Shown in pieces: positions 4,539 to 51,822 of a DNA stretch of 64,000 nt (position 1 is its first letter; each line of letters begins with the position of its first letter). Position numbers and translations under genes: made by a program. The stretch comes from a virus. Location of the stretch: the IMG/VR virus record IMGVR_UViG_3300042465_006702, positions 1 to 64,000 of that record; one strand, written 5' to 3'. The notes under the pieces were generated by a model. That model was not told where the DNA came from. It ran no database searches and saw only the letters and a program-made list of their open reading frames with translations.

Positions 4539-4539
4539 A

Positions 4540-12990: not shown

Positions 12991-13296
12991 GTTAAATTTA
13001 AGTCCGAAAAATTCATAGTTGTTATTTATGGATTCCTCATCTCCTAATTGAATAGCTTCTTTCTCACTTCTATAAATTGCATCCACAGGACATTCAGGTA
13101 TACATGCTCCACAATTTATACAATCGTTTGGATTTATATACAATTGCTTTCCTTGCTTTTCTTCATCCGATAATCCACGTGCCCCTTCACCGCTATCATC
13201 CGTTTTGATAGGACCATGAATACAATCAACGGGGCATACATTTATACATCCCATATCTATACACCCAATACATTCCTTTCCAATAATATAGCTCAT
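12988..13296 (-). CDS. 7Fe/8Fe-type ferredoxin
   Basis: This 102-residue protein has two cluster motifs: C9-x2-C12-x4-C17-x3-CP with an extra C25, and C59-x2-C62-x2-C65-x3-CP at 69-70. The nine-cysteine spacing is that of Azotobacter-type ferredoxin I, which holds one [3Fe-4S] and one [4Fe-4S]. It would carry electrons in the cytoplasm. Possible phage uses are the 2OG-independent redox enzymes, ribonucleotide reduction or Fe-S delivery. It overlaps the cytidylyltransferase-fold gene by 4 bases. IscU and IscA genes lie 7 kb away. Confidence 0.88.
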   Translation of the reverse strand: MSYIIGKECIGCIDMGCINVCPVDCIHGPIKTDDSGEGARGLSDEEKQGKQLYINPNDCINCGACIPECPVDAIYRSEKEAIQLGDEESINNNYEFFGLKFN

Positions 13297-18300: not shown

Positions 18301-18629
18301 GCTTCATCGGTCAATACAAAATCCACATTAGATGTAACACCTAATTGAGTATTAACATCAACTTCTTCTCCTTTTCTAAAACCTACAAATGAAGCATGGA
18401 TTACATATGGACCACCAACTCTTACTGCTGGTAATACATAAACACCACTTTTGTTCGTTGTAGTTTTGTACTCTGTTCCTGTTGGAGTGTGCGTCGCATG
18501 GATTGTTGCACCTGCTAACACTTCCTTCTTTTCGTTCTTAACAACACCAGAAATGGTTGAGGTTGTAATTTGTCCAAAACCTACCATTGTGAATGCTGCA
18601 AAAATCAATGACAAAATTGTCTTTTTCAT
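15342..18629 (-). CDS. Oar-type TonB-dependent outer-membrane receptor
   Basis: This 1095-residue protein has a signal peptide ending GFGQ (1-20). A CarboxypepD_reg-like beta-sandwich follows at ~22-110 (ISGVVKNEKKEVLAGATI), then a plug region (KEVVVVGTK, TIDGSQFNNNFG, GAGINAVTRSGSNEIEGSVY). A long beta-barrel rich in Asn/Tyr strands ends QLGIRYTFGK. GINAVTRSGSN is characteristic of Oar-like receptors of Bacteroidota and Myxococcus. The length is normal, with no frameshift. It is flanked by a terminator and the H1 terminator, so it is a single-gene unit. A receptor in a phage genome is unusual: it may replace, mask or supply a surface receptor, or carry in a substrate. It shares signal-peptide style with the proteins at 2.2-6.2 kb. 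Confidence 0.88.
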   Translation of the reverse strand: MKKTILSLIFAAFTMVGFGQITTSTISGVVKNEKKEVLAGATIHATHTPTGTEYKTTTNKSGVYVLPAVRVGGPYVIHASFVGFRKGEEVDVNTQLGVTSNVDFVLTDEAKALKEVVVVGTKSNIFSKEKTGAAQQFGRRELTTIPITGARTIDGITKYNPFGSGNSFGAQDSRLNNFTIDGSQFNNNFGLGSSAQAGGRTGASAISLDAIEQLQVNIAPFDIRQSGFTGAGINAVTRSGSNEIEGSVYQTQRDNSSRYVGDNARGVTVTASKFDEKVQGFRLGAPIIKNKLFIFGNYEQIERTEPGTTWISEGSPLTGTQVSRVKYADMQALSNFMKEKFNYVTGPWEGYSNTNASKKFLIRTDWNINDKNKLTARYVHHNSNAEINISNSQSAGAGNRTTQYNAMSFQNSGYIIMDNTRSAVLELNSKISNTLHNNLIVSYDKQIEDRAYMSAMFPTIDIREGAPTYTSVGFDPFTPGNKLNYWTFNVTNNVTKYMEKHTLVGGFNFQKYQSNNLFFPASNGVYIFNSLNDFYTAANQSLANGGRPSTFAPARFQFRYSALPGAVEPMQTLKTNRLDFYLQDDYKASKNLNLSFGLRTNIISFENTALENPVITAMTFANGEKWNTGVMPKTQLLFEPRFGFNYDVKGEKKTQIRGGTGIFTGRPPYVFLSNQIGNNGVLTGFIDVSGTAAAQYGFTANPNQYFIPSTPTLPSTFDLALTDANYKMPQVWKSNLAVDQKLPWLGLVASVELLYNQTINAVHYYNANLDAPVGTLGGVDNRPRFAGTDAGVRVNDNVSMAAVLTNRNGAYNRSATFKLEKPVSKGLWGYVAYTTARAMDFMDAGSIASGSWQSALSTTNNNDLGLSISSNLVRNRIVGLLGYRIEGDKKYGTATTFTLGYVGAQNNPFSYIVAGDLNGDRVSNNELVFVPLKGSDIRFSTLTVGSGATAVTYTEAQQQEAFDKFINQDPYLSTRRGQYAERNALALPFLHRFDLSVAQDLFVKIGGKRNAFQIRADILNFGNMLNNKWGVSQRAGAPQLLNFVSRDANNVPTYRLATQRDASGVTYLAKDTYMFNSSVFDVWTAQLGIRYTFGK

Positions 18630-18921: not shown

Positions 18922-19122
18922 TTATCTTCCTCGTTTTCTTTTGAGTTCTAATTCTTTAAGGTAATGTGCTTTCCAATGGTATTCAACCGAAACGGGCCCA
19001 TTTGGTTGTTTTTTCAAGTCATATTTCCAAATAGATTTAGATTCATCATCTTCAAATATGTATTCAAACTTTGTAGGTTTTTCTGTTTTACTATTATTTT
19101 CTTTAGAACTCTTTATACTCAT
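18922..19122 (-). CDS. Hypothetical charged protein, 66 residues
   Basis: A short hydrophilic protein with an Asn/Ser/Lys-rich start, a central FEYIFEDDESKSIWKYDL segment and a basic ELKRKRGR end. No family is recognised. Its ATG overlaps the stop of the preceding SGNH gene (ATGA), suggesting translational coupling. Confidence 0.5.
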   Translation of the reverse strand: MSIKSSKENNSKTEKPTKFEYIFEDDESKSIWKYDLKKQPNGPVSVEYHWKAHYLKELELKRKRGR

Positions 19123-19835
19123 GTGTTGAAAAATTTAGGAAATTTAACAATAAGATAATCTGCAAACGCCGTATGCATTTTTGGTGAAAAATGGGCATCA
19201 TCTCTTTTTCCTTCTAATCCATTAGTTTTTTGCCAAAGAGTGTGAAGGGTTTCCCAAATTCCTATTTTTTCTGTAATACAATCTTTATTTTCAATGAAAT
19301 CCCCCGATAACTCATTATCCCAGCTCCAAACATAAAATTCAAAAGGAACATACAATTTTATTGATTTTATTATTTCTAATAAATTTTTTTTATTTGCATT
19401 TGAACTATTTACTATTGACCATAATCGGCTATTTAAACCAGATTTATGGTCATCAAAAAAAGCATCTTCGAGTCCAAATAATGGTTCTTCCAATTCTTTC
19501 CCCTCCACATTTTGATAATTTCCATTTCCAATAAAATAATTTAAAATTTCCTTTTTACTTTCAAATGTTGTATATTCATTTGAAAACTCTACATCAATTT
19601 TTGGAGTTTTTAATGGTAATCTAATTCTTTCTAAAACAGGTATATTCAATATCACTAAATCATCTTTTGATATATCTTTCAAATTTTTTAAAAATATATC
19701 CATAATAGTCTGATAATCCCTACTGCCTTGGGATGAAATATAAAATTTACCTTTAAATTTTTTTGTAATTATTTCTGTCCAAAACCCACCATCATACCCC
19801 GTAAAACTATCTCCTATTATCCAAAGTTTACTCAT
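19119..19835 (-). CDS. SGNH/GDSL-type hydrolase
   Basis: The start is set at the ATG at 19835 (MSKLWIIGDSF) because the longer frame begins with TTG; the product is 238 residues. GDSF lies at 8-11, and the terminal block RDDAHFSPKMH gives the classical D212-x-x-H215, so this copy looks catalytically complete. It overlaps the GmhA gene by 8 bases, placing an esterase beside the heptose pathway. Confidence 0.72.
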   Translation of the reverse strand: MSKLWIIGDSFTGYDGGFWTEIITKKFKGKFYISSQGSRDYQTIMDIFLKNLKDISKDDLVILNIPVLERIRLPLKTPKIDVEFSNEYTTFESKKEILNYFIGNGNYQNVEGKELEEPLFGLEDAFFDDHKSGLNSRLWSIVNSSNANKKNLLEIIKSIKLYVPFEFYVWSWDNELSGDFIENKDCITEKIGIWETLHTLWQKTNGLEGKRDDAHFSPKMHTAFADYLIVKFPKFFNT

Positions 19836-20400
19836 TTTCAAATAATTTTGATTCTACTAATTCACAAATTATATGTCCTAATAAAATATGCGATTCTTGT
19901 ATTCTGGGCGTATCAGTCGATGGTACTTTTAAAATATAATCAGATATGTTGTTTAACTTTCCACCATCTATTCCCGTTAAGCTGATTGTTGTGATATTTT
20001 TTCCATTTGCAACCTCAAATGCTTTTACTATGTTTGTAGAATTACCTGAAGTGGATATTCCAATCAATACATCTCCGGCATTCATTACACCATCTACTAA
20101 ACGAGAATATACTGAATCATAATCGTAATCATTTGCTACTGCCGTTAAATAAGATGTATTACAATGTAGTGCTTCGGCGGGTAGTGCTTTTCTATCTTTG
20201 TAAAATCTACCAGATAATTCTGCTGCAAGGTGTTGAGCGTCTGCTGCACTTCCACCATTTCCACAAAACATAACTCTATTTCCTCTTTCAAATGTGTTAC
20301 AAATTACTTCAACTACTGATAAAATAGTTTTGTGAATTTCGGTATCTTTTAGTAACAATTCTTTAACTTCAATAGAGCTTTTTATTATTTTTTCTATCAT
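19828..20400 (-). CDS. gmhA: Phosphoheptose isomerase (GmhA-like SIS protein)
   Basis: This 190-residue protein contains the SIS domain signatures CGNGGSAADAQHLAAEL and GISTSGNSTNIVKA, plus TPRIQESHILLGHIICE. The QESH stretch is typical of GmhA, where Glu and His catalyse sedoheptulose 7-phosphate to D-glycero-D-manno-heptose 7-phosphate. Length and motifs agree with GmhA rather than generic SIS regulators. It overlaps IscA by 4 bases and follows IscU, an odd pairing in one operon. The heptose kinase HddA-like gene is 0.8 kb upstream. It probably feeds activated heptose for envelope or virion glycans. Confidence 0.87.
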   Translation of the reverse strand: MIEKIIKSSIEVKELLLKDTEIHKTILSVVEVICNTFERGNRVMFCGNGGSAADAQHLAAELSGRFYKDRKALPAEALHCNTSYLTAVANDYDYDSVYSRLVDGVMNAGDVLIGISTSGNSTNIVKAFEVANGKNITTISLTGIDGGKLNNISDYILKVPSTDTPRIQESHILLGHIICELVESKLFENE

Positions 20401-20720
20401 ACTGCAAAACTCTCACCACATCCGCAAGTTCGGCTAGCGTTGGGGTTTATAAACTGAAAACCCTTACCATTTAAACCATCTGAAAATTCTAATTCAGTAC
20501 CGAATAGGTATAGTAACGATTTGTTATCTACTAATATTTTTACTCCTTTATCTTCCGCAAGTGTATCGTTTGGTTGTTGTTCTGTATCAAATGAAAGTTC
20601 ATATGATAAACCACTACAACCACCACCCTTTACGGATACTCTTAAATACGGAGTTTTGAAACCACTTTCTTCAATTAGTGATTGAACTTTTTTAGCTGCC
20701 GATTCTGTTACAGTAATCAT
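20397..20720 (-). CDS. A-type iron-sulfur carrier (IscA/ErpA/SufA family)
   Basis: This 107-residue protein keeps all three cluster ligands: C35 in KGGGCSGLSY, and C99 and C101 in SRTCGCGESF. Length is normal for the family. It binds Fe-S clusters delivered by the scaffold and passes them to apo-proteins. It overlaps the IscU gene by 4 bases and GmhA by 4, so all three are translated from one message. A-type members cannot be told apart by sequence alone here. Confidence 0.92.
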   Translation of the reverse strand: MITVTESAAKKVQSLIEESGFKTPYLRVSVKGGGCSGLSYELSFDTEQQPNDTLAEDKGVKILVDNKSLLYLFGTELEFSDGLNGKGFQFINPNASRTCGCGESFAV

Positions 20721-21124
20721 ATGTGTTCTTCAAAAATTAATTCTTCCAATCCTTGCTTTTTTCTATAATCGTTAATTGCCGATTTGATTGCATCTTCAGC
20801 CAATACTGAACAATGTATCTTTACAGGTGGTAAATTCAATTCCTCTACCAAATCCATATTATCAATTGTTACTGCTTCATCTAAACTTTTTCCTTTCAAC
20901 CATTCGGTTGCCAAAGAACTAGCTGCGATTGCCGAACCACACCCAAATGTTTTGAATTTTGCATCGGTTATTAACCCATCATTTACTTCAATTTGCAATC
21001 TCATTACATCACCACATTCCGGAGCACCTACTAAACCTGTTCCTACATTTGGTTTAGATTTGTCCAAAGTTCCTACATTTTTAGGATTTGAATAGTGGTC
21101 TAAAACTTTTTCACTATATGCCAT
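20717..21124 (-). CDS. iscU: IscU iron-sulfur scaffold
   Basis: This 135-residue protein keeps the full scaffold site: C37, D39, C62 (FGCGSAIA), H104 and C105. The LPPVK motif (98-102) recognised by the HscA chaperone is also intact, so the protein could plug into a host ISC machine. No cysteine desulfurase or chaperone is seen in the window, so sulfur would come from the host. Candidate recipients encoded nearby are ferredoxin, the Cas4-like nuclease and host enzymes. A good copy of the recurrent promoter element lies about 20 bases upstream. Confidence 0.93.
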   Translation of the reverse strand: MAYSEKVLDHYSNPKNVGTLDKSKPNVGTGLVGAPECGDVMRLQIEVNDGLITDAKFKTFGCGSAIAASSLATEWLKGKSLDEAVTIDNMDLVEELNLPPVKIHCSVLAEDAIKSAINDYRKKQGLEELIFEEHI

Positions 21125-21140
21125 ATTATCTTATTTACTT

Positions 21141-21160
21141 TTATAAATATACGGAAAATT
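21141..21160 (-). promoter_or_regulatory. Candidate phage promoter element
   Basis: The minus strand reads AATTTTCCGTATATTTATAA before iscU, an exact CCGTATATT core. It overlaps the last codon of the GHMP kinase gene. Confidence 0.5.
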
Positions 21161-22193
21161 ATCCAATTTGCCAAGTTCTCATTCCCAATTTATTCCAAGT
21201 AAATGGTTGATTATATCCCATTTCTAATTTATCTAATGCTTTAATCACATCATATTTTGTATTATTCGGGCAGTAGAAAAACATAAATCCACCACCACCG
21301 GCACCACTTATCTTACCGCCGGTTGCACCTGCTTCTAATGCAGTTTTGTATAACAATTCTATTTCAGGTGTGCTAATTCCTTTTGCTAACATTTTCTTTT
21401 GCTGAAACCCATAATCTAATATCTCACCCAAGTCATCAATGTTTCCTTTGATTAAACAATCTTTTATTAATTTTGCTTGCTCTACCAAAGCGTGAAGTGA
21501 TAAAGTGGATGTTTTATTTTTATCTTTCATTTTTGTAACCTGTTCTTGTAATACATCGGAACTATTACGAGTAAAATTTGTAAAATAAAGAACTACATTA
21601 TTTTCCAATTCATCTTGCACACTATCTCTAACACGAAGTGGATTTACAACAACATCATCTCCTTTGAATTCCATATAATTCCAACCACCAAATGCAGCTG
21701 CATATTGGTCTTGCTTACCACCATTTTCTGCTAATTCAATTCTTTCAATTTGAATTGCCATTTCAGCTATATCATATTCACCCAATGGTAGATTAAATAA
21801 TTCTGTATATACACCAATTAAAGAAACAATTAGTGTTGATGATGTTCCCAATCCACTACCCGTTGGAACATCCTGCCAAGTTACGATATCATATCCAAAT
21901 GGTTCTAATTTAAAACGTTTAGATATGTGATTATGAGTTGCTTTAAACAACTTTAATCCATATGAACAATCTAACTCATTGGTGAATTCATGCTCCTCAT
22001 ATTCATCCTTATTTACCCATTTAAACGTAACTTTGGTATCATCTCTTAATACTAAAGAAGTGTGAGTGAATAAACGGATGGTAGTATTAATTACTGCGCC
22101 TGTGTGGTGTTTACAATAATCAGGCATATCAGTACCACCGCCACCGAAACTAATTCTGAATGGAACTTTGCTCCTGTAAATTCTTTTCTTCAT
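21159..22193 (-). CDS. hddA: GHMP kinase, heptose 7-phosphate kinase-like (HddA)
   Basis: This 344-residue protein has the GHMP motifs: PFRISFGGGGTDMPD at 11-25, DVPTGSGLGTSSTLIV at about 108-123 (ATP phosphate loop), and GKISGAGGGGFMFF near the C-terminus. PFRISFGGGGTD is typical of D-glycero-alpha-D-manno-heptose 7-phosphate kinases (HddA) and related sugar kinases. With GmhA in the same neighbourhood, a heptose 1,7-bisphosphate step is the best reading; the phosphatase and nucleotidyltransferase candidates lie elsewhere in the window. It overlaps the HNH-like gene by 44 bases. Confidence 0.85.
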   Translation of the reverse strand: MKKRIYRSKVPFRISFGGGGTDMPDYCKHHTGAVINTTIRLFTHTSLVLRDDTKVTFKWVNKDEYEEHEFTNELDCSYGLKLFKATHNHISKRFKLEPFGYDIVTWQDVPTGSGLGTSSTLIVSLIGVYTELFNLPLGEYDIAEMAIQIERIELAENGGKQDQYAAAFGGWNYMEFKGDDVVVNPLRVRDSVQDELENNVVLYFTNFTRNSSDVLQEQVTKMKDKNKTSTLSLHALVEQAKLIKDCLIKGNIDDLGEILDYGFQQKKMLAKGISTPEIELLYKTALEAGATGGKISGAGGGGFMFFYCPNNTKYDVIKALDKLEMGYNQPFTWNKLGMRTWQIG

Positions 22194-22781: not shown

Positions 22782-23678
22782 CTATAAATTAATATGATTT
22801 ATTATTTGTTCTGCTATTTTTTTTGAACCCAATATTGAATTATGCCCATCTAAACTCAAATTATTTGTATGATTTTTAAATGTTATTTTTTCCTCTCGTA
22901 TCCAATGAACCAAATCATAACAATAATAATTTTCTACTGGATGATATTTCTCATTATTTTTACTGATATAAAATTTAACGGAGTTACTATTTACTTTTGT
23001 TTGTATTTCTACACATTTTTCATAAGAAAGATACTTTTCATTACTTTTTGTAACGGCATGTAATCTATTATCCGTTTGAATAAAAATGCATTTTGAATTA
23101 TATAAATCAAATAAAGATAACAAAATAAACAAATTTTTTAAATCTTTTTTGGATTCGTTTTCTAAATCAAAATTATTTTCAAAAAACTTTCTAGTTTGTT
23201 TAAAACTTTGTTCAGTTAAAAAATCAAAGTTATCTTCTCCGGATGTAAAATTTCCATATCTATTTTGCTCACAAAAATAAAGTTCCCCCCTTCCAACAGG
23301 TGGAATTTCTATTAAGAACAAAGTTTCTTTTAATTCGTTTTTATCTGAATTTATAATGTAATTTATAGTTTTCCTGATTACCCTATCTAACGAGCTTCCG
23401 AATATTGATTCGTTTATTAAGTCTACTTTATAATTTTCTGCAATAACATTTGCATAATTATATTTTTTTCTTACCCAATCAAAATCATTAAATGGTTTGA
23501 ATGCATTTGGATTTGTATATTCGTTGTTTTCATTTTGTATTGAATGTTTTTTACATTCATCTTTGAATTTTGAAATATCTATTTTATTCGTTTCATCAAA
23601 AAACTCAAAATACCAGGGATTATTATGATGATGTCCCCACATAAAACTGCAACCATTTGAATAAATTCTTTTAAACAT
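22782..23678 (-). CDS. SGNH-like hydrolase
   Basis: This 298-residue protein has block I NGCSFMWG (8-15). The middle contains EIPPVGRGELYF, and the end has LSLDGHNSILG with D277-x-H279. It is longest of the ten SGNH genes and touches the APS-kinase-like gene (shared base 23678). With no signal peptide it acts inside the cell or as a virion part. Confidence 0.65.
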   Translation of the reverse strand: MFKRIYSNGCSFMWGHHHNNPWYFEFFDETNKIDISKFKDECKKHSIQNENNEYTNPNAFKPFNDFDWVRKKYNYANVIAENYKVDLINESIFGSSLDRVIRKTINYIINSDKNELKETLFLIEIPPVGRGELYFCEQNRYGNFTSGEDNFDFLTEQSFKQTRKFFENNFDLENESKKDLKNLFILLSLFDLYNSKCIFIQTDNRLHAVTKSNEKYLSYEKCVEIQTKVNSNSVKFYISKNNEKYHPVENYYCYDLVHWIREEKITFKNHTNNLSLDGHNSILGSKKIAEQIINHINL

Positions 23679-25665: not shown

Positions 25666-26310
25666 TTATAATTTTTGTATATACCTATATAAATATTCAA
25701 AAAATTCTTTATGCCCCAATTTTCCGAAATGTCTATCATTATTTGTTTGCCACCATTTTGAATTTGAGTTACAATAATCAATCCAACAAGGTTTTGTATA
25801 TGGTTTTATGTAATTATTTGTATTATTTTTTACCAAATTATCAAATAAGGATAAACCACATTTGTCCATATTCCAAAATAAAAATTTAATACCTTTACTT
25901 TTTAAAGAGTCTATTATAAATTTATATTGTAATAATGCGGTATGTGTGTATTGTAGCATTGCATTTTCATCTACAAATTTATTTTTATAAAACAAAACTT
26001 CATAATCATCATATCCATCTGTATTTTGATTTCTCAAATCAATACCTCTATCTTTATAAAAATCATAAATTCTATCATAAAAGGTAAATCCAATAATTAC
26101 TAAATCAGAATAATCAATTTTTTTTATCTCTAAATTTTTGTAAATTGTATTTAAGATGCCGTAATTAGATATACCCGGTGATGCATAATTTTTTAATTCA
26201 TATCCTAATTCTTTTGAAAGCAAATTGGGCCAACTTTCTTCAATTTGTATTTCACCAATTGTAGAAAAGTTTGTAGAAAATGAATCACCAAAAATATATA
26301 AATTTTTCAT
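25666..26310 (-). CDS. SGNH/GDSL-type hydrolase
   Basis: This 214-residue protein starts MKNLYIFGDSFS with GDSF at 8-11. A YASPGISNYGILN stretch provides the Gly/Asn block, and NDRHFGKLGH provides D192-x-H194. The order of blocks and the strand spacing are SGNH-like. It sits 8 bases from the 2OG-oxygenase gene at the edge of the carbohydrate block. Confidence 0.72.
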   Translation of the reverse strand: MKNLYIFGDSFSTNFSTIGEIQIEESWPNLLSKELGYELKNYASPGISNYGILNTIYKNLEIKKIDYSDLVIIGFTFYDRIYDFYKDRGIDLRNQNTDGYDDYEVLFYKNKFVDENAMLQYTHTALLQYKFIIDSLKSKGIKFLFWNMDKCGLSLFDNLVKNNTNNYIKPYTKPCWIDYCNSNSKWWQTNNDRHFGKLGHKEFFEYLYRYIQKL

Positions 26311-32049: not shown

Positions 32050-32626
32050 TTATAATATTCTTTATTTTATTATATTTTTCTTCCGATTTAGTTAAAATTC
32101 CTAATCCCGCAGAACCTGTATGTATTAATTTATATCCATCACAATCTGCAAAAAATACACCAACTGTTTCAGGAAAAGATTCTACATCATGAAACAAAAT
32201 GATTGCATCATCATTACAAAATCCTATCCAATTATCAAAATCACCTTTAACTGCTTCATATGAATGAAATCCGTCAATGTGTAATATGTCAATTTTTTTA
32301 TCCCAAGTTTTTGATGCTTCTGCAAAATCACTTTTAATAAATTCTATATTTGAAACACCAAAATTCTTTATGATATGTTGATACAAATCATCTACCAAAT
32401 TTAATGTATCTCTATGGCCGGCGTGGTCATCACCTTGAAACCAATCAATACCATATACATTACCGATTTGTGGATATCCAAAGCAAAATGTTGAAAAACC
32501 ATAATCAACTCCCAAGTCTACTACAACTTCGGGATTAAATGTTTCTACTAATTCCATAGCCAATAATCCATGACCTTTCCATGCTGAATCATGTCTCAGC
32601 AATGTTTCAATGTATCTATTTTTCAT
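32042..32626 (-). CDS. Class I SAM-dependent methyltransferase
   Basis: This 194-residue protein contains EVVVDLGVDYGFST (SAM motif I), VYGIDWFQGDD (motif II) and KIDILHIDGFHSYEAV with DxxHSY (motif of the methyltransferase-24 type). These enzymes methylate sugars or small molecules. It is flanked by glycosyltransferases and overlaps each by 8-11 bases. Acceptor unknown. Confidence 0.75.
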   Translation of the reverse strand: MKNRYIETLLRHDSAWKGHGLLAMELVETFNPEVVVDLGVDYGFSTFCFGYPQIGNVYGIDWFQGDDHAGHRDTLNLVDDLYQHIIKNFGVSNIEFIKSDFAEASKTWDKKIDILHIDGFHSYEAVKGDFDNWIGFCNDDAIILFHDVESFPETVGVFFADCDGYKLIHTGSAGLGILTKSEEKYNKIKNIINA

Positions 32627-33317
32627 TTTCGTTTAATATTATTTCTTCTAATTTATATGGTAATAAAGAAAAATTCAATGGTTCTACTTTTGTAACATTT
32701 TTAACTATGTTTAAAAATTCAAACCAATTAAAATGATTTGTTTCACCACCAGGAATTATCTTTGTATTTTTTATATAATCAATTGTATATTTAAAAAAAT
32801 CTATATAAATTGATTTCATTGCATTTGCAGTACCAACCATAATATTATCATCAAATTTTTGATGACCTTGCCAATGATTTCCTGCTGCATATAGTAAATT
32901 GATATCTTTATTTGATTTTATAAAATCTATGAACATATCAACATTGTGTAACTCTATATCCATTCTTGCCTTTATAATAAAATCGTAATCCGATTTCAAT
33001 GCTTCCGAAAAAATGGTGATTGTTTGGAATCCACTAGTCACTGCATATGCTTGCTGCATTGCATGGTAGGATTGTGTTTCATATGTTGAATCGACTGGTA
33101 TTAAATCAATAAATTTATGTGGATTTGAGACTTTAATTTCTTTTGGTTGAAAATCTTCAATCAATCCATTTATATCAATAAAGTTTCTACCTCTATCTTC
33201 ACCATACCAAGTTTGAATAAACACATCTGCGTTTAATTCTTTAATTACTTTTTGCCATTGGTCTAATACTTTTTTGTATTTTCTAGGTTGACCATAAAAG
33301 CATATAGCTATTTTCAT
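32616..33317 (-). CDS. Glycosyltransferase-like protein
   Basis: This 233-residue protein starts MKIAICFYGQPRKYKK, has FIIKARMDIELHN as the acidic motif, and ends in a charged tail. GQPR openings and R-x-D-I motifs are typical of a glycosyltransferase-like group in capsule clusters. It resembles the gene at 29486-30163. It overlaps the GDPD-like gene by 4 bases. Confidence 0.55.
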   Translation of the reverse strand: MKIAICFYGQPRKYKKVLDQWQKVIKELNADVFIQTWYGEDRGRNFIDINGLIEDFQPKEIKVSNPHKFIDLIPVDSTYETQSYHAMQQAYAVTSGFQTITIFSEALKSDYDFIIKARMDIELHNVDMFIDFIKSNKDINLLYAAGNHWQGHQKFDDNIMVGTANAMKSIYIDFFKYTIDYIKNTKIIPGGETNHFNWFEFLNIVKNVTKVEPLNFSLLPYKLEEIILNENEK

Positions 33318-33754
33318 ATTAATTCTTTATATTTTAATATTTCATCCGTACAAATTCCGTAACAAACTGATAAATCGCCACCATACCCCCATTCAGGCAT
33401 ACAACATATTGAATCCTTTAATAATTCTTTTCCTGGATATACCCAAATCATACCATTTGATATTAGTGTATAATCATCATTTGCATGCCAAAAATATTTA
33501 ACATTATTCCATTTATTAAAACGTTCCAATGCCGCTGCGTTTTTGCAGTGTAACCACAACTTTGGATTAAAAAAATAATCACTATTTACTTTGTATTGTG
33601 GTTCATCGTGTCCCAAATACCATCCATCTGTTGTAAACCACACATCAACTTCAACATCATATCCTTCTTTAATAGCTTCTTCTATATAATCAGGATGATT
33701 TTCTCTACTTGGAATTCTACCATCAATATTTCCTCTATGTGATATTAATACCAT
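33314..33754 (-). CDS. Short PI-PLC/GDPD-fold protein
   Basis: This 146-residue protein begins MVLISHRGN (H6-R7-G8) and has VEVDVWFTTDGWYLGHDEP with E35-x-D37 and H49. These match the metal-binding HRG / ExD / H landmarks of glycerophosphodiester phosphodiesterases. It is much shorter than the usual ~240 residues, so the later barrel strands may be missing or replaced. It touches the phosphatase-nucleotidyltransferase gene. It could hydrolyse or transfer a phosphodiester-linked sugar substituent. Confidence 0.6.
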   Translation of the reverse strand: MVLISHRGNIDGRIPSRENHPDYIEEAIKEGYDVEVDVWFTTDGWYLGHDEPQYKVNSDYFFNPKLWLHCKNAAALERFNKWNNVKYFWHANDDYTLISNGMIWVYPGKELLKDSICCMPEWGYGGDLSVCYGICTDEILKYKELI

Positions 33755-35118
33755 TATTTATAATTTTCTAAATAATAATTTAAATCTTCAGGAGTTCCTA
33801 GTCCCCACATTTTATCAATATGAAATGGTTTTATTTTTTTACCATCTCCAATCGCTTCATTATAAACAGGACTAACATAAAATTCATTATTAGTTCTGAT
33901 ATTCTTTTCAATCATTTGCTCTGCATATTTAACATATTCACTTCCCTTTGCCCAATAATAGATTCCAACGATTGCTATATCAGAAATTGGATTCTTTTCT
34001 GCCAATTCGGTAGCATATCCGTTTTCATTCACTTTAGTAAATGACCATTTTGGATGTGTTGCTTTAAAAGTTAAAAACCCACCATCTACCTTTTGTTCAT
34101 TCATCTTATACATAAACTCATTTGAATCCCATTCTACAAATTGGTCAGAGTTTGCCATCAATAACGGAGAATCATTATCAATGTATTCTTTTGCCAATAG
34201 AGTTGTACACGCAGCTCCTTCGGTCAAACCATCTACTTCAACAATTTTACATCCAGGTGTAATTAAATTTAATAACGTATCCAAATTATACTTTGCTCTA
34301 TGTTCCTTTTGAACCACATAAATATAATTTGCCTCTATGTTAAGATTTTCAATAACCAACTGAATCATTGGTTTTCCTTTTACATCAATTAACGGTTTAG
34401 GAAATGTATATCCTGCTTGCTGAAATCTATTTCCTGCTCCTGCCATTGGGATAAGTATGTTTAACTTACCACCCTGCCATTTTGGTGTATTCATATTTTC
34501 TTTTGTTTTTTCTAATTTACTAATAATTTTTGATAATACCAAATCTAATGGATTATCTACTCTTAAAACATTTGCTCTACTTCTACTTGCGGCCAATAAG
34601 CCCGGTGGAGAATCTTCAACAATAAGCGTTTCTTCTGGTAACACACTCATCATACTCATTGCCTTCCAATACATTTCAGGATGCGGTTTAGAGTTCTTTA
34701 CATCCTCATTAGAAAGAATTAAATCCATATACTCAATTAATCCTATCTTCGATAATATTACCAATACAGACCTTCTAATTGAGTTTGAGCAACATGCTAA
34801 CTTATATCCTCTATTTCTTAATTCTTTAAATATTTCAATTAACCTATTATCGGATTTTAAATGTGTTATGGCTTCAATTGTTAGCTGTTGTTTTCTACTC
34901 CAAATTTGTTCGTAAAATTCAGTAGATAATCCTTTATTCTTTGTAAGTAATTCTAATTTTTGTGTTGTTTTTAAACCATCGTATGTAGAAAGATGTTCCG
35001 CTTCTGTTATAACGTATTTAACATCTATTTCTTTTAATGCTTCATTAAAAGTTTCGTAGTGTATTTGCTTTGCCTCTACCAATACACCGTCCATATCAAA
35101 AATTATCAATTTAATCAT
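33754..35118 (-). CDS. HAD phosphatase - sugar nucleotidyltransferase fusion
   Basis: This 454-residue two-domain enzyme has residues 1-205 as a HAD-IA phosphatase: FDMDGV with D8 and D10, then CSNS, KPHPEMY with K144, and VEDSPPG. Residues 218-454 are an NTP_transferase domain: PMAGAGNRF at 224-232, FPKPLIDVKGKPM, and an acidic DQF site. The fusion would dephosphorylate a bisphosphorylated sugar and then activate the monophosphate to an NDP-sugar. It lies directly after a kinase-aldolase gene, with 4-base overlap, suggesting a four-step pathway. Confidence 0.8.
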   Translation of the reverse strand: MIKLIIFDMDGVLVEAKQIHYETFNEALKEIDVKYVITEAEHLSTYDGLKTTQKLELLTKNKGLSTEFYEQIWSRKQQLTIEAITHLKSDNRLIEIFKELRNRGYKLACCSNSIRRSVLVILSKIGLIEYMDLILSNEDVKNSKPHPEMYWKAMSMMSVLPEETLIVEDSPPGLLAASRSRANVLRVDNPLDLVLSKIISKLEKTKENMNTPKWQGGKLNILIPMAGAGNRFQQAGYTFPKPLIDVKGKPMIQLVIENLNIEANYIYVVQKEHRAKYNLDTLLNLITPGCKIVEVDGLTEGAACTTLLAKEYIDNDSPLLMANSDQFVEWDSNEFMYKMNEQKVDGGFLTFKATHPKWSFTKVNENGYATELAEKNPISDIAIVGIYYWAKGSEYVKYAEQMIEKNIRTNNEFYVSPVYNEAIGDGKKIKPFHIDKMWGLGTPEDLNYYLENYK

Positions 35119-36539
35119 AACCTATATTTTTCTGCCTCTATACTTTTTAAATATTGAATATCTTCTTTTTCTAATTGTTTTATTTTTCCTATCTTATTTC
35201 CAAAATAGTTTATGTAATTATTTGCAGCAATGGTTTCATCATCTGATAGAACAACGGAATCGGGCCAACTATAAATTTCTAATTGATTTTTATTTACCCA
35301 ATCAATTGAAAATTCTTCAAAATTTTTTATATTTTCTTTTAAATAATCTTTTACTTTTTTATTAATTAATGTAATATAATAAATTGTATCATAACAATCA
35401 TCCAATGATACAATCAATCCGTGATTTTCTAAAAAAATAATATTTTTTAAATTTTCTGTTGTTAAAATTTTTTTTGTTAATTCGTATCCAGGGTTATAAT
35501 ATTGAATAAAGTCATATTCAAAAATACCATTAAATAATTTATCAATCAATTCCTTTGAATTTTCTAAACAAAGAACACAATTCAAATAAATTGGATGAAG
35601 ATGAAATACATATTTTTTAAATATGGTGTGAAATCCTGTTTCCATTGATGGTTTTTTGTATATAGAATTTTTAGTTGAATCTACTAAATAATTATGCAAT
35701 TCCGTTTCACTATCAATTTTATTAATATTAAAATTTTTATAGTTTATTATAGAATACCCATCGGAATATGAAACGTTTTTTATTTTTTCTCCACTTGCTT
35801 TTATAACTAATTTATCAAATAATTTTACTGATATATTTCCACCTTTTGATTGTACTAATGGTAAGCTATCACCAATAGTTTTATTTATCCATTCAAATTG
35901 ATATAATTCTTTGTGTAATTTTTTTATGAAATCAAATAGTAAATAATCAACATCCTTTTTACATTGTATTTCTATATCAGAACCTCTTTTTATTTTTATA
36001 ATAACATCTGCTTTTTCTAATTGAACTGATTTTATATTTTCCGAATCTTTTTTTCTCCTTTCAATTAAATCAATTACATCATCCTTTTTATATCCTCTTT
36101 CTCCGGTATCTCTTTTTATTTTTAAATCTATTCTAAAATCTTCTTCTATATCAATGTATATTTTAAGGTCTGATAGGGTTTCTGAACCTATTGTATAGAA
36201 TGCGTGCAATCCTTCATTTATGATATATTTGTTTGGGTGAATTGTAAGTATATCACCGAACTTTCCTGTAGTGTGGTTATATTTTTTTCTTAATACCTTT
36301 ACACCTTCTCTTAAACTTAATAATTGCAAATCACCAAGTTTTAAATTATTAGCATCAGGATTTAAATGTGTAAATATTTCCCAATTAGTATCCCCTCTTT
36401 CCCACTTATGTAAATCATCACCGGATATTAACGTACAATTTTCATACCCATAGTATAATCGAATAAAATTTGATATTGTTGATTTGCCTGATCCTGAATC
36501 TCCTGCAATACTGATTATGTAGGGTTTATCTTTTACCAT
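35115..36539 (-). CDS. P-loop kinase - class II aldolase fusion
   Basis: The start is set at the ATG at 36539 (MVKDKPYIISIAGDSGSG), which leaves a 14-base overlap; the longer frame overlaps by 62. This 474-residue protein has Walker A GDSGSGKST at 13-21, like uridine kinase/phosphoribulokinase. The later half is class II aldolase/adducin-like: KGGNISVKL, HLHPIYLN (metal His pair) and LENHGLIVS. A sugar or short-chain polyol would be phosphorylated and cleaved or joined by the second domain. Its substrate is unknown. It is flanked by the fused nucleotidyltransferase and a glycosyltransferase. Confidence 0.78.
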   Translation of the reverse strand: MVKDKPYIISIAGDSGSGKSTISNFIRLYYGYENCTLISGDDLHKWERGDTNWEIFTHLNPDANNLKLGDLQLLSLREGVKVLRKKYNHTTGKFGDILTIHPNKYIINEGLHAFYTIGSETLSDLKIYIDIEEDFRIDLKIKRDTGERGYKKDDVIDLIERRKKDSENIKSVQLEKADVIIKIKRGSDIEIQCKKDVDYLLFDFIKKLHKELYQFEWINKTIGDSLPLVQSKGGNISVKLFDKLVIKASGEKIKNVSYSDGYSIINYKNFNINKIDSETELHNYLVDSTKNSIYKKPSMETGFHTIFKKYVFHLHPIYLNCVLCLENSKELIDKLFNGIFEYDFIQYYNPGYELTKKILTTENLKNIIFLENHGLIVSLDDCYDTIYYITLINKKVKDYLKENIKNFEEFSIDWVNKNQLEIYSWPDSVVLSDDETIAANNYINYFGNKIGKIKQLEKEDIQYLKSIEAEKYRL

Positions 36540-37269
36540 ATTTTTCCCAATCGTTGTGCATGAATAAACCATAAGCTTGTCCAACATTATAATTTTGCTG
36601 TGCCCACCACTTACTGATGTTTCCTTCTAAACCAATACCCTCGCCCGCAAATGGTCTAACAACATCCAAATAAAATTGTTTCTTATAAAGACATGGGTTG
36701 TTTGTCCAATTACCATATCTAGATGTTGTATAAAACATTTCTTCCGTCTTTTTTATTTTATCAGGAAAATCCACAGATGGGTCACACCAATGAATTGAAT
36801 CTAATAAATGTGGTGATGTGCATCCGATTTCCTCATCATAATAAGTTAGTTCTTTTCCAATGTGTCTAAAAGAAAAATGTGGATATCCTGGATTTTCTCT
36901 ATGTCTTAATCTTACCACATCTAACCCATTTTCTATTGCCTCAATACTTCTTTTGAGTGTCCAATGAGTTACTTCCTTATTTTCTATTAAATTCCAATCA
37001 TGCTCCAATACTAGAACGTATTCCGATTGTGCATTTTCTGTTAATTTAATAAATGCTTTACCTATTCCAATATTAGAATTCATTCCTATAACATCTAATC
37101 CAAAATGTTTTGCAATTTGATAATCTTGCTCATTAAATTCTTGAAATAGAATTGTAACATCATTTACCATATCAAATAATCCATTTTCGTAATATGTGGT
37201 TAAAGTATCTACTAATACTTGTCCACTATGCCAGGATAATATTCCTATACTAATTGGTAGTTTTTCCAT
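36526..37269 (-). CDS. GT-A family 2-like glycosyltransferase
   Basis: This 247-residue protein starts LPISIGILSWHSGQVL, has YVLVLEHDWNLI as the acidic motif, and LRHRENPGYPHF before a Trp-rich C-terminus. Its GT2-like core lacks membrane segments. It lies 3 bases from the epimerase gene. Sugar and acceptor are not predictable. Confidence 0.68.
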   Translation of the reverse strand: MEKLPISIGILSWHSGQVLVDTLTTYYENGLFDMVNDVTILFQEFNEQDYQIAKHFGLDVIGMNSNIGIGKAFIKLTENAQSEYVLVLEHDWNLIENKEVTHWTLKRSIEAIENGLDVVRLRHRENPGYPHFSFRHIGKELTYYDEEIGCTSPHLLDSIHWCDPSVDFPDKIKKTEEMFYTTSRYGNWTNNPCLYKKQFYLDVVRPFAGEGIGLEGNISKWWAQQNYNVGQAYGLFMHNDWEKYGKR

Positions 37270-37272
37270 AAT

Positions 37273-38265
37273 TTATTTTTTCCAAAATGAATAAATTCCT
37301 TTTTCTAATTCGTAGTTTTCCCAAACAAATCTTTTTCTATTTGGTTGTTTTTGTGCCCATTCCCACATTTTACTTAAGCCATCTTTTAATGATGTTTTAT
37401 GTTCAAATCCTAAAATATCTACCGATTTTTGATGCGTTGGTATTGAATTTTTTACTTCATGTCTGCCTTCTTTGTAAACAACCTCACCATTAGTAATAAC
37501 TTCCATCAATACTTTGTTTGCATCATTAATGCTCCACTCTTCAACACCTCCCAAATTAATAATTTCTTTTGAAGCGTTTGGTTTTACTGCTGCGTTCCAA
37601 AGTGGTTCAAGTATATCATCAATATAACTAAATGCTCTTTTTTGCTCACCATCACCAAAAATTGTCATTGGTTCTCCGTTCATATATTGGTACATCCAAA
37701 TACCTAATACATTACGATATCTATCCCAAATATTCTGTTTAATACCATAAACATTGTGTGGTCGTATAATACACCAATCAAGTCCGTGCTGTTCTCCTGC
37801 AATTTGTATATCCATTTCACATGCATATTTTGCCACACCATATGGGTCGATTGGTTTCGGTACTTGTGTTTCATCAAAAATACCATAATCACCATGCCCA
37901 TATACTGCTAAAGTTGATGTAAATACCAATCTTTTTACATTATACTTTATACAATTGTTTATGATTCTTGCAGTTGCCACTAAATTATTCTCATAATTAT
38001 GTTGTCTGATAAATGGTGATAATCCTTCTGCTGCATATGCAGCAAAGTGAAATACATAATCAAATCTATGAACATCAAATGCATTTTCAATTGGATGTTC
38101 AACTAAATTTTGTTGCCAAAATATTACTTTAGGGTTTACATTTTCTCTATATCCACCACTCAAATCATCAATACCAACTACTTCAACATCAGGTTGGTTT
38201 TCGATAATCCAATCGGCCAATCTACTACCCAATAGACCCGCTACTCCTGTTATTAAAACTTTCAT
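37273..38265 (-). CDS. NAD-dependent sugar epimerase/dehydratase (SDR extended)
   Basis: This 330-residue protein has the Rossmann start VLITGVAGLLGSRL with G7-x2-G10-x2-G13. TSTLAVYGHGDYG and DPYGVAKYACE follow, with the catalytic Y-x3-K. IFGDGEQKRAFSYIDD is a typical substrate-loop motif. It is GalE/RfbB-like in layout. It could interconvert UDP- or GDP-sugars, including a heptose, for the neighbouring transferases. It overlaps the next gene by 41 bases. Confidence 0.85.
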   Translation of the reverse strand: MKVLITGVAGLLGSRLADWIIENQPDVEVVGIDDLSGGYRENVNPKVIFWQQNLVEHPIENAFDVHRFDYVFHFAAYAAEGLSPFIRQHNYENNLVATARIINNCIKYNVKRLVFTSTLAVYGHGDYGIFDETQVPKPIDPYGVAKYACEMDIQIAGEQHGLDWCIIRPHNVYGIKQNIWDRYRNVLGIWMYQYMNGEPMTIFGDGEQKRAFSYIDDILEPLWNAAVKPNASKEIINLGGVEEWSINDANKVLMEVITNGEVVYKEGRHEVKNSIPTHQKSVDILGFEHKTSLKDGLSKMWEWAQKQPNRKRFVWENYELEKGIYSFWKK

Positions 38266-40693: not shown

Positions 40694-41353
40694 CTATTTA
40701 TTTAAATACTCTATAATTTCATCTGCCAACTCTCTATGTCCAACTTCACCATAATGACCATCTTTAACAATTCCATCCGATTCAACTGACATATCGGTTC
40801 TTGTTCTGATTGGTATATCGACATTAATATTGTGTTTTCCACCGAAAGTAGAATCGCACCAAGTCCAAAACACAACTTTAACTCCTTTTAATTTTGCCCA
40901 CTCTTTTATAAAAAATCCCCAATCATTGATTTCATCACTATAAAAATCACTAAATTCATACCTGTTAAGTATTATATGTTCGGCAACTTCTTTTGTTACA
41001 CAGGTACCATCAACACATGCCTCTTCAATTCCACCATGCCACCCTGCTGCCCATATCTGTTGCCACATCCTAGTTTTATCTGGTCTTTGTTTAGCTAATC
41101 TATATCGCATGACCGGCGACCATCCAATTATAAGGATATCTCCAGACTGTATTTCTTTTTGGTATTTTAAAAAATCTGCAAATATTTGATTACAGGAAGA
41201 ACCTGCAACACCTTTATTTTCAGAAAGCATACTATATTCTTCTGCTACAAATTTACAATAATCTTTTGATTCTCTACCCAACCATTCCGTATATGGTCCA
41301 TCACCACTAATAGGCGCAGTCATTGAATCTCCAAATGCCCAAACAGTATTCAT
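40694..41353 (-). CDS. SGNH/GDSL-type hydrolase
   Basis: This 219-residue protein starts MNTVWAFGDSMTA with GDSM at 8-11. It has a GVAGSSCNQIF Gly/Asn block and ends with KDGHYGEVGH (D198-x-H200). The VVFWTWCDSTF strand precedes the last block. It lies 8 bases from the next gene. Cytoplasmic; substrate unknown. Confidence 0.72.
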   Translation of the reverse strand: MNTVWAFGDSMTAPISGDGPYTEWLGRESKDYCKFVAEEYSMLSENKGVAGSSCNQIFADFLKYQKEIQSGDILIIGWSPVMRYRLAKQRPDKTRMWQQIWAAGWHGGIEEACVDGTCVTKEVAEHIILNRYEFSDFYSDEINDWGFFIKEWAKLKGVKVVFWTWCDSTFGGKHNINVDIPIRTRTDMSVESDGIVKDGHYGEVGHRELADEIIEYLNK

Positions 41354-48496: not shown

Positions 48497-48518
48497 AACT
48501 AATATACGGAAAATTTTT
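48497..48518 (-). promoter_or_regulatory. Candidate phage promoter element (best match)
   Basis: The minus strand reads AAATTTTCCGTATATTAGTT about 20 bases upstream of the sliding-clamp gene. It has the complete AATTTTCCGTATATTA pattern, and the gap here separates it from the SGNH stop. Confidence 0.55.
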
Positions 48519-49264
48519 TAAATTTCAAATTTTTCTTTTATGTGATTATATAAATTATTTACATATAATTCATTTTCTTTTGGACTTGCGTGTATTTGTG
48601 AATCAGGAAAATTTGGATAATCTCCATCGAATCTATTTTCATCGGTGTAATCTGTTCCTACAAATGTACCATTCCAAATAAATGGTATTTCTTTTGATTT
48701 TAAATAATATGTTATCAATTGATGATTTTTATACCAATTTATAAAATCTTCTTTATGGTTCAGTGCTTCTACTATATTTGCCCACTTTTTTCTACCTATC
48801 ATTTCTTCATCAAAATGTCCCCAAGGAATCGGATGATATGGTTCTATTCCTCCCGATTCCGTATAGTATTCTCTTCTTTGTGGATATGTATACATTACCA
48901 AAACCAAAGATGGTTTTAAATAATCGGTCCATGTTAATACTGCTCTTGATATATAATCATTACTTCTACCACTTATTCCCAAATTAAGGTCAACTCCATT
49001 TGGTATTTTACGAGAAATTAAATGAGGCCAAGTTTCGTGATTATGAACATTTATACCTTCGGTGTGCGAACAACCTACTGACATTACTCTTATTCCTTTC
49101 TTTTTTGGTGAATCGCCTCTAAATCCTAATTCATTAAATCTATAATAACACCCATCCGAATCGGAACCATTTCCTAAATTTTCTTTATTTTTTCTTTCTT
49201 TTATTGACCATTTATAACTGGCAATATCAAATTCGTCAGGTGTCCAAAATTTTAATACTTCCAT
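48518..49264 (-). CDS. SGNH-like hydrolase inside the replication block
   Basis: The start is set at the ATG at 49264 (MEVLKFWTPDEFD), which avoids a 55-base overlap with the polymerase; the product is 248 residues. RFNELGFRGD precedes VMSVGCSHTEG (GCSH at 64-67) as block I. The end reads DSQIHASPKEN, where H may pair with a Gln or the nearby Asp. The location between polymerase and clamp genes is striking for a hydrolase and implies cargo insertion. Activity uncertain. Confidence 0.65.
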   Translation of the reverse strand: MEVLKFWTPDEFDIASYKWSIKERKNKENLGNGSDSDGCYYRFNELGFRGDSPKKKGIRVMSVGCSHTEGINVHNHETWPHLISRKIPNGVDLNLGISGRSNDYISRAVLTWTDYLKPSLVLVMYTYPQRREYYTESGGIEPYHPIPWGHFDEEMIGRKKWANIVEALNHKEDFINWYKNHQLITYYLKSKEIPFIWNGTFVGTDYTDENRFDGDYPNFPDSQIHASPKENELYVNNLYNHIKEKFEI

Positions 49265-49266
49265 AA

Positions 49267-51822
49267 CTAAAATGCGAAAAACTTTTGTGCTGTTTTTGTT
49301 TCTACCGATGCTTTTTCCCACTTCAATGCGTTGTAAAAATCATCAATCTTATTTTCTAATTCTGCTTTATAAATTTCATCTCTATCAATATAAGTTTCAA
49401 TGAAGTCCATAACCTCTTTCGGGTCATTGTAATCTTTGAATGCCAATCCTTCTAGTCCTAATGGGTTTGTTTTAAGATATACCCATTTCACTTTATCTCC
49501 ATCTCTGATTGGTTCGTGTTTATAAGGACAGTTAAAGAATTTTAATAATCGGTTGTATGCTATTCCGGCTTTAACGTGTGCAGGTGTTCCCTTTTCGAAA
49601 TCTGCAATTGCTTTACCTTTTGCCCAACTACCATCATCATACTTACTTAATTCTTTGATTGCTCCACCCTTTGCTATTTTGTTTACAGGTAATCCAACCA
49701 TACTCTTTTTGAATGTCAGTAACGAGTCATCTATGAATGCGTTATCTTTACCCATTAGAATATCTTTTAGAGTTCTTGCCATAAACTCCTGAAATGCTTT
49801 GGGGAATGAACTTCTAACAACGTCCAAACCTTTCACATCCAACTTATCACATGGAATACCATTTTTCAAAATCATCCATTGTGCATATCGTTTTTTTGCT
49901 ACCCAAAATCCTGCTTTACTGATATACTCTTTCTTAATCTCAAATCTATGCTTCTCTTTTGGAATAAAAAAGAATCGTTCTGCCAACAAATCGTAAAATG
50001 AATTTAAAAATGATTGAGTTTCTTCTGCAATTATGTTCACCTCTTGTGCCATTCTGGTTTCATCAAACTCTTTATAATTTGGATATCTGTGTTTTACCAA
50101 AGGTTCTGCCATCATATAGATTGAATCCGTATCAATATACACATTGTAATCATCTTTAGTACCCAATTCTTTCCAATATTTGATGTTAGCCATTTCAGCA
50201 GTTTTCTTAATAACAGTTTGACCTGTTAGAGTTACTGCTTCTGCATTATCAACATCATAAAATCGGAATGCCGGTAAACCTAAAACACCATACATTGAGT
50301 TCAGCAGGATTTTTTGTACAAGCTGTCTTTTAGCATAAAACTCATATTTTTCAGTATCTCCTTCTTCACCATACTTCTTTTCTAATTTTCTAAACTCAAC
50401 ACGTTTATCAAACCAATCATTTAGAATATCTGCAATCAAACCTGGACTATCTTGGTTATATAAGACTCCGTTTGCAGCAACACCCAAATTTCCATCTTTA
50501 ATTACTTCTTCTAATTCACGCCTATTATATTCGTATTGCTCTTCATCCTTACCAATTAAATTATATGTTTTGTCTTCACCCTTAATCCAACTTTCCGCAT
50601 CCCAATTTTGAATCTTACCTACTTTTGTTTCAGGACTGATGTTTAGAGTCATAATGATTGATGGATATAGAGATGTTAAGTCCAAGTCATAAATCCAATC
50701 ATACTTACCAACGATAGGTTCTTTTACATATGCTCCGATAAACTTTTCTTCGTTGTTATCTTTAAGAGCTTGCATTCTTTCTTTTCTATCTTTTGGTTTA
50801 TTGGATGCTACCAATCCTTTCTTTTTAAGATATGCTAAACATGCACCTTCTAACCACTTTGATGAAAATATGTAATCTTCATACGGAACAAACCCAGCGT
50901 GACAAACTGCTCTACATAATTCAATGAACTGAAGTTTATCATCCATTGCTACAATTAGGTCTACATCGACAATGTTATACTCAATAAATTTTTCTAAATC
51001 ATTTTCAAATAGGTCATCCAAACTTCCTTCGTATTCAACCTTACCTCTACCTAATTCTTTAGTAGCGATATAATTTAGTGTATAAGATGATTCTAATGTA
51101 TATGTGTAAGTTTTATAAAGATTAAGATAATCCAAAATACTTACTCCACCAAATGACCATTTATCTCTATATGGCGAATAGAAAGTTTGTCCGATTGGGG
51201 ATAATCTTTTTGCGTGTCCTTCTCCGCATACGTTTTTAATACGATTGTAAAGGTATGGAATATCAAAAAAGTCTATGTTCCAACCCGTAAGAATAGTCGG
51301 GTTAATTTCTTCGTAATAATTAAGAAATGCAAATAAAAGATTTTTCTCGTTATCAAAAATGTGAACGCTAACTTCTCTGCCATCCTTATTAAATTGTGTG
51401 GCATTGTTTTTAACTTTTTTTTCTTTATCTAATACAAAAACATCAAACAACTTTGTAGCACTATCTTGTGCTGCAATTGCTGTGATTTCATTTTGTGCTT
51501 CTTTTGTGTTTGGTAACCCCGTGTTCATTTCAACCTCAATATCAAACGTCATTACCCTATGTCCTTTTGATGGTAAATCTTCATTGTATATATCAACTAA
51601 TACTCTAGTTGTTTCTGGTACATCTGCTTCGAATAGTTCTTCGGTTTCTTCTTTATCCCACTTTGATATACGAGTAAGTTTATCACCATACATTGAAAGA
51701 TATTGTCCGTATGGGTCTTTTTTATAGGCATACTTACGATATGGAAAGGTTGTATATCCCCTTTCATCATCCCATAAATGCATTAAGTTTTTTGACCTTT
51801 CGTAATAAATGTTTTGATACAT
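49267..51822 (-). CDS. Family B DNA polymerase (gp43-like)
   Basis: This 851-residue enzyme has exonuclease landmarks MTFDIEVEMN (DIE at 94-96) and GWNIDFFDIPYLYNR. The polymerase motifs are DLDLTSLYPSIIMTL (A), LLNSMYGVLGLPAFRF (B) and YIDTDSIYMM (C, DTD). It replicates the genome with clamp and helicase. It is a little shorter than T4 gp43 (898). It touches the downstream GT-B gene by one base. No intein or split is seen. Confidence 0.97.
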   Translation of the reverse strand: MYQNIYYERSKNLMHLWDDERGYTTFPYRKYAYKKDPYGQYLSMYGDKLTRISKWDKEETEELFEADVPETTRVLVDIYNEDLPSKGHRVMTFDIEVEMNTGLPNTKEAQNEITAIAAQDSATKLFDVFVLDKEKKVKNNATQFNKDGREVSVHIFDNEKNLLFAFLNYYEEINPTILTGWNIDFFDIPYLYNRIKNVCGEGHAKRLSPIGQTFYSPYRDKWSFGGVSILDYLNLYKTYTYTLESSYTLNYIATKELGRGKVEYEGSLDDLFENDLEKFIEYNIVDVDLIVAMDDKLQFIELCRAVCHAGFVPYEDYIFSSKWLEGACLAYLKKKGLVASNKPKDRKERMQALKDNNEEKFIGAYVKEPIVGKYDWIYDLDLTSLYPSIIMTLNISPETKVGKIQNWDAESWIKGEDKTYNLIGKDEEQYEYNRRELEEVIKDGNLGVAANGVLYNQDSPGLIADILNDWFDKRVEFRKLEKKYGEEGDTEKYEFYAKRQLVQKILLNSMYGVLGLPAFRFYDVDNAEAVTLTGQTVIKKTAEMANIKYWKELGTKDDYNVYIDTDSIYMMAEPLVKHRYPNYKEFDETRMAQEVNIIAEETQSFLNSFYDLLAERFFFIPKEKHRFEIKKEYISKAGFWVAKKRYAQWMILKNGIPCDKLDVKGLDVVRSSFPKAFQEFMARTLKDILMGKDNAFIDDSLLTFKKSMVGLPVNKIAKGGAIKELSKYDDGSWAKGKAIADFEKGTPAHVKAGIAYNRLLKFFNCPYKHEPIRDGDKVKWVYLKTNPLGLEGLAFKDYNDPKEVMDFIETYIDRDEIYKAELENKIDDFYNALKWEKASVETKTAQKFFAF

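Follow-up and report, generated by a model that had tools for sequence, protein, structure and literature searches.

Three overlapping genes on the minus strand of a viral genome fragment encode five predicted enzymatic activities that belong together and whose active-site residues are conserved among relatives. The fragment is the IMG/VR virus record IMGVR_UViG_3300042465_006702, and the stretch we analysed, positions 1 to 64,000 (the window), covers nearly all of its 64,935 bases. The first gene (35115..36539, 474 aa) fuses a kinase of phosphoribulokinase (PRK) type to a class II aldolase (ALD), and we call it PRK-ALD. The second (33754..35118, 454 aa) fuses a HAD phosphatase to a nucleotidyltransferase (NTT). 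The third (33314..33754, 146 aa) encodes a minimal protein of the GDPD fold, a putative metal-dependent phosphodiesterase. PRK-ALD overlaps HAD-NTT by 4 bp, HAD-NTT overlaps the GDPD gene by 1 bp, and the GDPD gene overlaps the next gene, at 33317, by 4 bp. A preliminary description made from the sequence alone had seen here two bifunctional fusions and a phosphodiesterase-like gene with overlaps of 1 to 4 bases, and the open reading frames (ORFs), Pfam and a GDPD-fold model of the third protein all agree. It had also placed them in a glycosyltransferase block; glycosyltransferase-like genes, methyltransferases and a nucleotide-sugar epimerase do lie around them.

Our reading, a tentative one with nearly as much for it as against it, is that the cassette starts from a pentulose phosphate and produces an activated precursor that the surrounding glycosyltransferases use. 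It is possibly a new pathway. The preliminary description could name no known pathway with this exact set, and neither did we find one described in the literature searched on polysaccharides and phages (most subscription papers lay outside this search). Yet the cassette is frequent among environmental phages, and SAR11, among the ocean's most abundant cells, has its core pair too; no described function was found. An ocean survey of auxiliary metabolic genes leaves out contigs with such glycan islands (PMC11360552), so the enzyme set may have been overlooked.

Recurrence of the Set

The strongest evidence that the five activities act together is that this set was put together more than once and in different orders. 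Scanning with four fusions gave 65 related viral loci, which were pooled with earlier loci. Viral PRK-ALD fusions number 64, and 32 of them are non-redundant besides the window's own. An NTT and a GDPD lie at most four genes away in 27 of the 29 non-redundant PRK-ALD loci with enough flank; a small PNKP-like HAD is also present in 16 of these 27, and HAD-NTT in 2. In the same loci neither neighbour was near any of 33 ORFs distant from the anchor, a small sample. PRK-ALD and NTT overlap by exactly 4 bp at 25 of 29 junctions. The cassette usually runs PRK-ALD, NTT, sometimes a small HAD, and GDPD, the gene between NTT and GDPD being the small PNKP-like HAD. In the window's lineage HAD-NTT replaces both the NTT and the small HAD. 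Nor is this a recent replacement, because another viral locus (L189) has PRK-ALD with HAD-NTT as well, the kinase-aldolase being 54% and the HAD-NTT part 77% identical to the window's.

The preliminary description had suggested looking for the gene order in other genomes, and the set does recur in unrelated phages and on two bacterial chromosomes, in other orders and fusions. One phage locus (L239) has the complete set, separate or otherwise fused: a glycosyltransferase (GT) joined to PRK, ALD, small HAD, GDPD and NTT-NTT. Synechococcus myoviruses carry a HAD-NTT 58% identical and a GDPD about 45% identical to the window's, inside glycosyltransferase blocks. The cyanophage islands of S-CAM9, S-SM2 and Bellamy resemble the window in having HAD-NTT/GDPD among glycosyltransferases, and S-SM2 and Bellamy have an aldolase and a small HAD along with the GDPD, in the order NTT-NTT, GT61, ALD, small HAD, GDPD. 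Two Bacteroidota loci (L263 and L264) hold within about 9 kb a HAD, a class II aldolase, NTT-NTT, GtrA, GT2, a probable GDPD and a GT87-PRK fusion. The first NTT of the NTT-NTT proteins belongs to the subfamily of the stand-alone NTT of the phage cassettes (42-56% identity). The PRK-ALD fusion itself is absent from the 296 Bacteroidota genomes searched, where only the GT87-PRK cluster was found, in two.

Sister cassettes apparently use the same pentose-phosphate pool as well. There are NTT-RpiB fusions in Bellamy (L007:8998-10155, 4e-32) and in a further locus (L180:5530-6687, 2e-33), and an NTT-DHBP synthase fusion in S-SKS1 (L008:8001-9428, 5e-65). In 8 of 8 loci that have a RuBisCO-like protein (RLP), it stands beside an NTT and a GDPD, and most of these loci have a cupin too; they lie in glycan islands, viral and two bacterial (L170, L172, L088, L151, L158, L159, L162, L167).

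The HAD-NTT and GDPD genes are also widespread on their own account, each with at least 599 matches in IMG/VR. Around GDPD anchors an NTT is nearby in 41 of 50 loci. Among 147 Pelagibacterales genomes, 10 carry HAD-NTT at E<=1e-60, and the GDPD gene directly adjoins it in each of the eight full-length SAR11 loci read (L255-L262, where the pair lies near polysaccharide genes). SAR11 may have supplied the phage module or acquired it.

It could be argued from this that the window holds two independent modules. HAD-NTT and GDPD would activate a common host metabolite, and the product of PRK-ALD would not be used by the window's NTT. The pair is indeed stable without PRK-ALD, with a GDPD at most four genes away in 30 of 46 viral loci anchored on HAD-NTT and in the eight SAR11 loci just mentioned, and the window's NTT has more in common with its counterparts in the RpiB and RLP cassettes (43-44% identity) than with the NTT usually paired with PRK-ALD (33%). 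We nevertheless think two modules unlikely. PRK-ALD loci nearly always have an NTT and a GDPD of their own, the window's HAD-NTT sits exactly in the NTT slot, and no second NTT was found among the window's ORFs. Across 18 large viral contigs HAD-NTT (14) and PRK-ALD (4) are mutually exclusive, as expected of alternatives, and the merged arrangement persists across the large divergence seen in L189. The idea of the set as a unit is well supported by association; it has to be amended for HAD-NTT, which is not the usual partner and forms a widespread module with GDPD.

The Kinase-Aldolase Fusion

Pfam finds both domains in PRK-ALD (PRK, 7.7e-33; Aldolase_II, 5e-9, 36.7 bits against a cut-off of 22.2). 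Together with PDB matches it places the kinase at residues ~1-195 (35955..36539, minus strand) and the aldolase at residues ~205-474 (35115..35924, minus strand). The ORF also has a longer in-frame ATG at 36587. An AlphaFold model of the fusion from four sequences reached a pLDDT of 38.5 and was discarded.

The best PDB matches of the kinase are true phosphoribulokinases (118 bits, with uridine kinase at 39 bits), the photosynthetic ones being nearest, and its P-loop is of the phosphoribulokinase kind. In the PRK of M. hungatei residues that bind ribulose-5-phosphate (Ru5P) or ATP are His55, Arg59, Tyr98, His100, Lys151 and Arg154 (Kono et al., PMC5241800). These correspond at a constant offset of +11 to H44, R48, Y87, H89, K140 and R143 of the window's kinase, which are invariant in 33 of 33 PRK-ALD fusions. 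A core of 181 residues aligns almost without gaps to this enzyme (5B3F, of cyanobacterial/archaeal type), with the six tested site residues kept. The window's kinase is unlike known PRKs in lacking the C-terminal region, in its fused aldolase, in being viral and in its glycan-island context.

A kinase domain nearest to photosynthetic PRKs could be taken for an auxiliary metabolic gene of the Calvin cycle, one that supplies extra ribulose-1,5-bisphosphate (RuBP) for carbon fixation, which is how an Antarctic lake virome study reads viral PRK (prkB) contigs (PMC11421388). We find this very improbable here. The PRK is fused to an aldolase and stands among glycosyltransferase genes with an NTT and a GDPD. 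The gene content of the window appears to be that of a Bacteroidetes phage, judging from its Oar-like outer-membrane protein, and does not indicate a cyanophage. Cyanophages that carry a related cassette gave no match to the PRK-ALD fusion.

FucA cleaves D-ribulose-1-phosphate. The window's aldolase has common ground with FucA and RhaD in its Zn ligands (HxH...H) and catalytic Glu, and it is unlike them in its weak sequence matches and its place behind a kinase in a fusion. The catalytic Glu and Zn ligands, E300, H313, H315 and H373, are invariant in the 33 fusions. Both fusions of the window in fact keep their active-site residues, the loss of which the preliminary description had named as grounds for giving up its proposal. 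Among the substrates of class II aldolases are 5-substituted ribulose-1-phosphates, which they split into dihydroxyacetone phosphate (DHAP) and an aldehyde (PMC6302742), and a Glu at the position of FucA Glu73 and RhaD Glu117 marks aldol cleavage (PMC5434028).

The domain might instead be a C4-epimerase like AraD or a dehydratase like MtnB and yield a rare pentulose or deoxypentulose in place of C2 and C3 fragments. The fold family holds both activities, class II aldolases are able to epimerise (PMC5434028), and the RLP and cupin of the sister cassettes recall methionine-salvage chemistry (PMC6302742). We think this quite unlikely. The closest NCBIfam matches are of rhamnulose-1-phosphate aldolase type. 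MtnB carries Cys at the position of FucA Glu73 and RhaD Glu117. The Glu at this position is invariant in the fusions, and AraD has Asp (PMC5434028).

The Phosphatase-Nucleotidyltransferase Fusion and the Minimal GDPD

Pfam finds HAD_2 (6e-32) and NTP_transferase (3e-10, 40.7 against 21.2 bits) in HAD-NTT. With alignment and PDB profile searches, the HAD phosphatase domain, which is beta-PGM/CbbY-like, is placed at residues ~1-205 (about 34504..35118) and the NTT domain at residues ~218-454 (about 33754..34467), both on the minus strand. In an alignment of 26 members the catalytic residues of the HAD (D8, D10, K144, E168, D169) and those of the NTT (G227, G229, R231, F232, P240, K241, P242, D325) are invariant. 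The HAD shares its catalytic residues with the beta-phosphoglucomutase/CbbY/MtlD-HAD family (PDB matches at E 1e-25 to 1e-15), but it is fused to an NTT and scores 95.1 bits on the beta-phosphoglucomutase equivalog, far under the cut-off of 189.4. The NTT has the GxGxRF...PKPLI signature and the fold family of sugar-phosphate nucleotidyltransferases (4evw; heptose-pathway 5xhw and 6jq8). Cassette NTTs differ from these known enzymes in their fused partners: HAD, RpiB, DHBP synthase, a small HAD or a second NTT.

The heptose enzymes among these relatives raise another explanation, that HAD-NTT is an equivalent of GmhB-HddC and finishes GDP-heptose with a GmhA-like protein (19828..20400) and an HddA-like GHMP kinase (21159..22193). 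The window does have these GmhA-like SIS and GHMP kinase genes, and two "putative 6-deoxy-D-mannoheptose pathway" proteins are among the solved NTTs nearest to its own, at E ~1e-7. We consider this explanation improbable. The window's HAD is of beta-PGM/CbbY type and not GmhB type, and the kinase-aldolase and the GDPD would be left unexplained. The window's GHMP kinase was matched in 0 of the 18 large viral contigs, 14 of which have HAD-NTT (with no positive control among the records). By reading, the window also has an RfaE-like cytidylyltransferase (13293-13727), on the minus strand like the other two heptose-type genes.

The third protein has no Pfam match above chance and belongs to phrog_34507 (9e-31). 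A profile search matched a solved GDPD through the N-terminal motif (E 2.7e-4). The AlphaFold model of the 146-residue protein has a pLDDT of 97.2, and VIA-align aligns 139 of the 146 residues to solved GDPDs (best Z 10.6, rmsd 3.4). The GDPD rows have Z of 8-10.6, the first 39 rows are almost all of GDPD/phospholipase-D type, and the first unrelated barrel comes at Z 6.0. Across 60 aligned relatives H6, R7, E35, D37, H49, K71, N9, E18, N19, H69, H90 and D137 are invariant; the first six of these are invariant in a count of 56 sequences. The fold and the HR / ExD / H motif are those of known GDPDs. The protein differs from them in having 146 residues against ~230, in travelling with NTT genes and in reading HxK where GDPDs have ExK, the third metal-ligand Glu being replaced by His69. 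The protein is nevertheless likely to be active. A close structural relative (42% identity) is contained in BFVD A0A3G5A5B5 from Homavirus, a giant-virus FkbM methyltransferase record.

A Possible Pathway

The preliminary description proposed a linear pathway that starts with aldol chemistry. A single pathway ending in nucleotide activation is supported by the associations described above, but we believe kinase then aldolase is the likelier order, because the kinase has a PRK-type Ru5P site and the PRK product bears the 1-phosphate that FucA/RhaD-type aldolases use. The PRK domain, going by its residues, would probably phosphorylate Ru5P at C1 to RuBP. RuBP is a 5-substituted ribulose-1-phosphate, with the phosphate at C5. 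The simplest reading is that the route runs from Ru5P through RuBP to DHAP and phosphoglycolaldehyde. Retro-aldol cleavage of RuBP by the fused aldolase to DHAP and 2-phosphoglycolaldehyde is a tentative suggestion; the domain might instead carry out an aldol exchange, or epimerise RuBP to a different pentulose bisphosphate. Joining the kinase to the aldolase would stop the build-up of RuBP, which is useless to a non-autotroph. The HAD domain would then take off one phosphate. The NTT would very probably activate what is left, coupling the remaining phosphate to a nucleotide to give an NDP-linked small polyhydroxy compound. We lean towards a role for the minimal GDPD on a phosphodiester of the route or of its product, and we have slightly more confidence that the neighbouring glycosyltransferases would put the product on the virion or on the infected cell.

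Several points weigh against this pathway. The kinase scores 172 bits on NCBIfam PRK07429, below the cut-off of 236, and covers profile positions 6-192 of 326 only; it lacks about 130 residues at the C-terminal end of PRK. The aldolase scores far under the cut-offs of its best NCBIfam equivalogs, and we know of no class II aldolase documented to have RuBP as its natural substrate. In SAR11 and in most phages HAD-NTT and GDPD are found with no PRK-ALD, so the window's HAD-NTT might serve another substrate. A GDPD has no obvious place in the making of an activated precursor. The GDPD-like protein of the Bacteroidota clusters has the motifs HR, ExD and HD and is a weak match by hhalign (probability 49%); it is called only probable because a PDB sequence search with it gave no GDPD. 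Every substrate, and the order of the steps, we infer.

If the RuBP reading is true, some of the viral "phosphoribulokinase" genes that have been taken for carbon-fixation genes may be glycan genes, and a new kind of activated sugar fragment is there to be discovered. More broadly, and more speculatively still, viruses and some bacteria may have repurposed Calvin-cycle-type chemistry for glycans. PRK-ALD, or in the sister cassettes an RLP, RpiB or DHBP synthase, would turn ribulose phosphates into small fragments, which cognate NTTs would activate into a new class of nucleotide-linked building blocks handled by minimal GDPDs.

The Gene Block and the Rest of the Window

All the genes that follow are on the minus strand. 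The gene that overlaps the GDPD gene by 4 bp encodes a putative glycosyltransferase-like protein of MKIAICFYGQPR type (32616..33317, phrog_13607), and relatives often have this family beside the GDPD. Directly upstream of PRK-ALD is another putative glycosyltransferase-like gene (36526..37269), whose place is kept in the closest relatives. An NAD-dependent nucleotide-sugar epimerase/dehydratase (37273..38265, Pfam Epimerase 2e-42) belongs to the same block.

The window is T4-like, judged from the translations of its DNA polymerase, clamp, clamp loader, RecA-type and DnaB-type proteins. The Oar-like protein is an Oar/TonB-receptor-like outer-membrane beta-barrel of 1095 aa (15342-18629) with a carboxypeptidase-regulatory domain (OMP_b-brl_4, 2e-50). 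There are iron-sulphur genes at 20397-21124 and 12988-13296: IscU/NifU_N-like (3e-50), IscA-like (6e-19) and a dicluster ferredoxin. Two large secreted-looking proteins lie within 2250-6222, one with a C-type lectin domain and one with a weak cohesin match. About ten divergent proteins have an N-terminal SGNH/GDSL-like motif, GDS, GSS or GCS, with no Pfam match in the two that were scanned (7114-7689, 7658-8434, 8431-9156, 10002-10790, 10759-11496, 19119-19841, 22782-23678, 25666-26310, 40694-41353, 48518-49321). This is an unusual expansion of paralogues.

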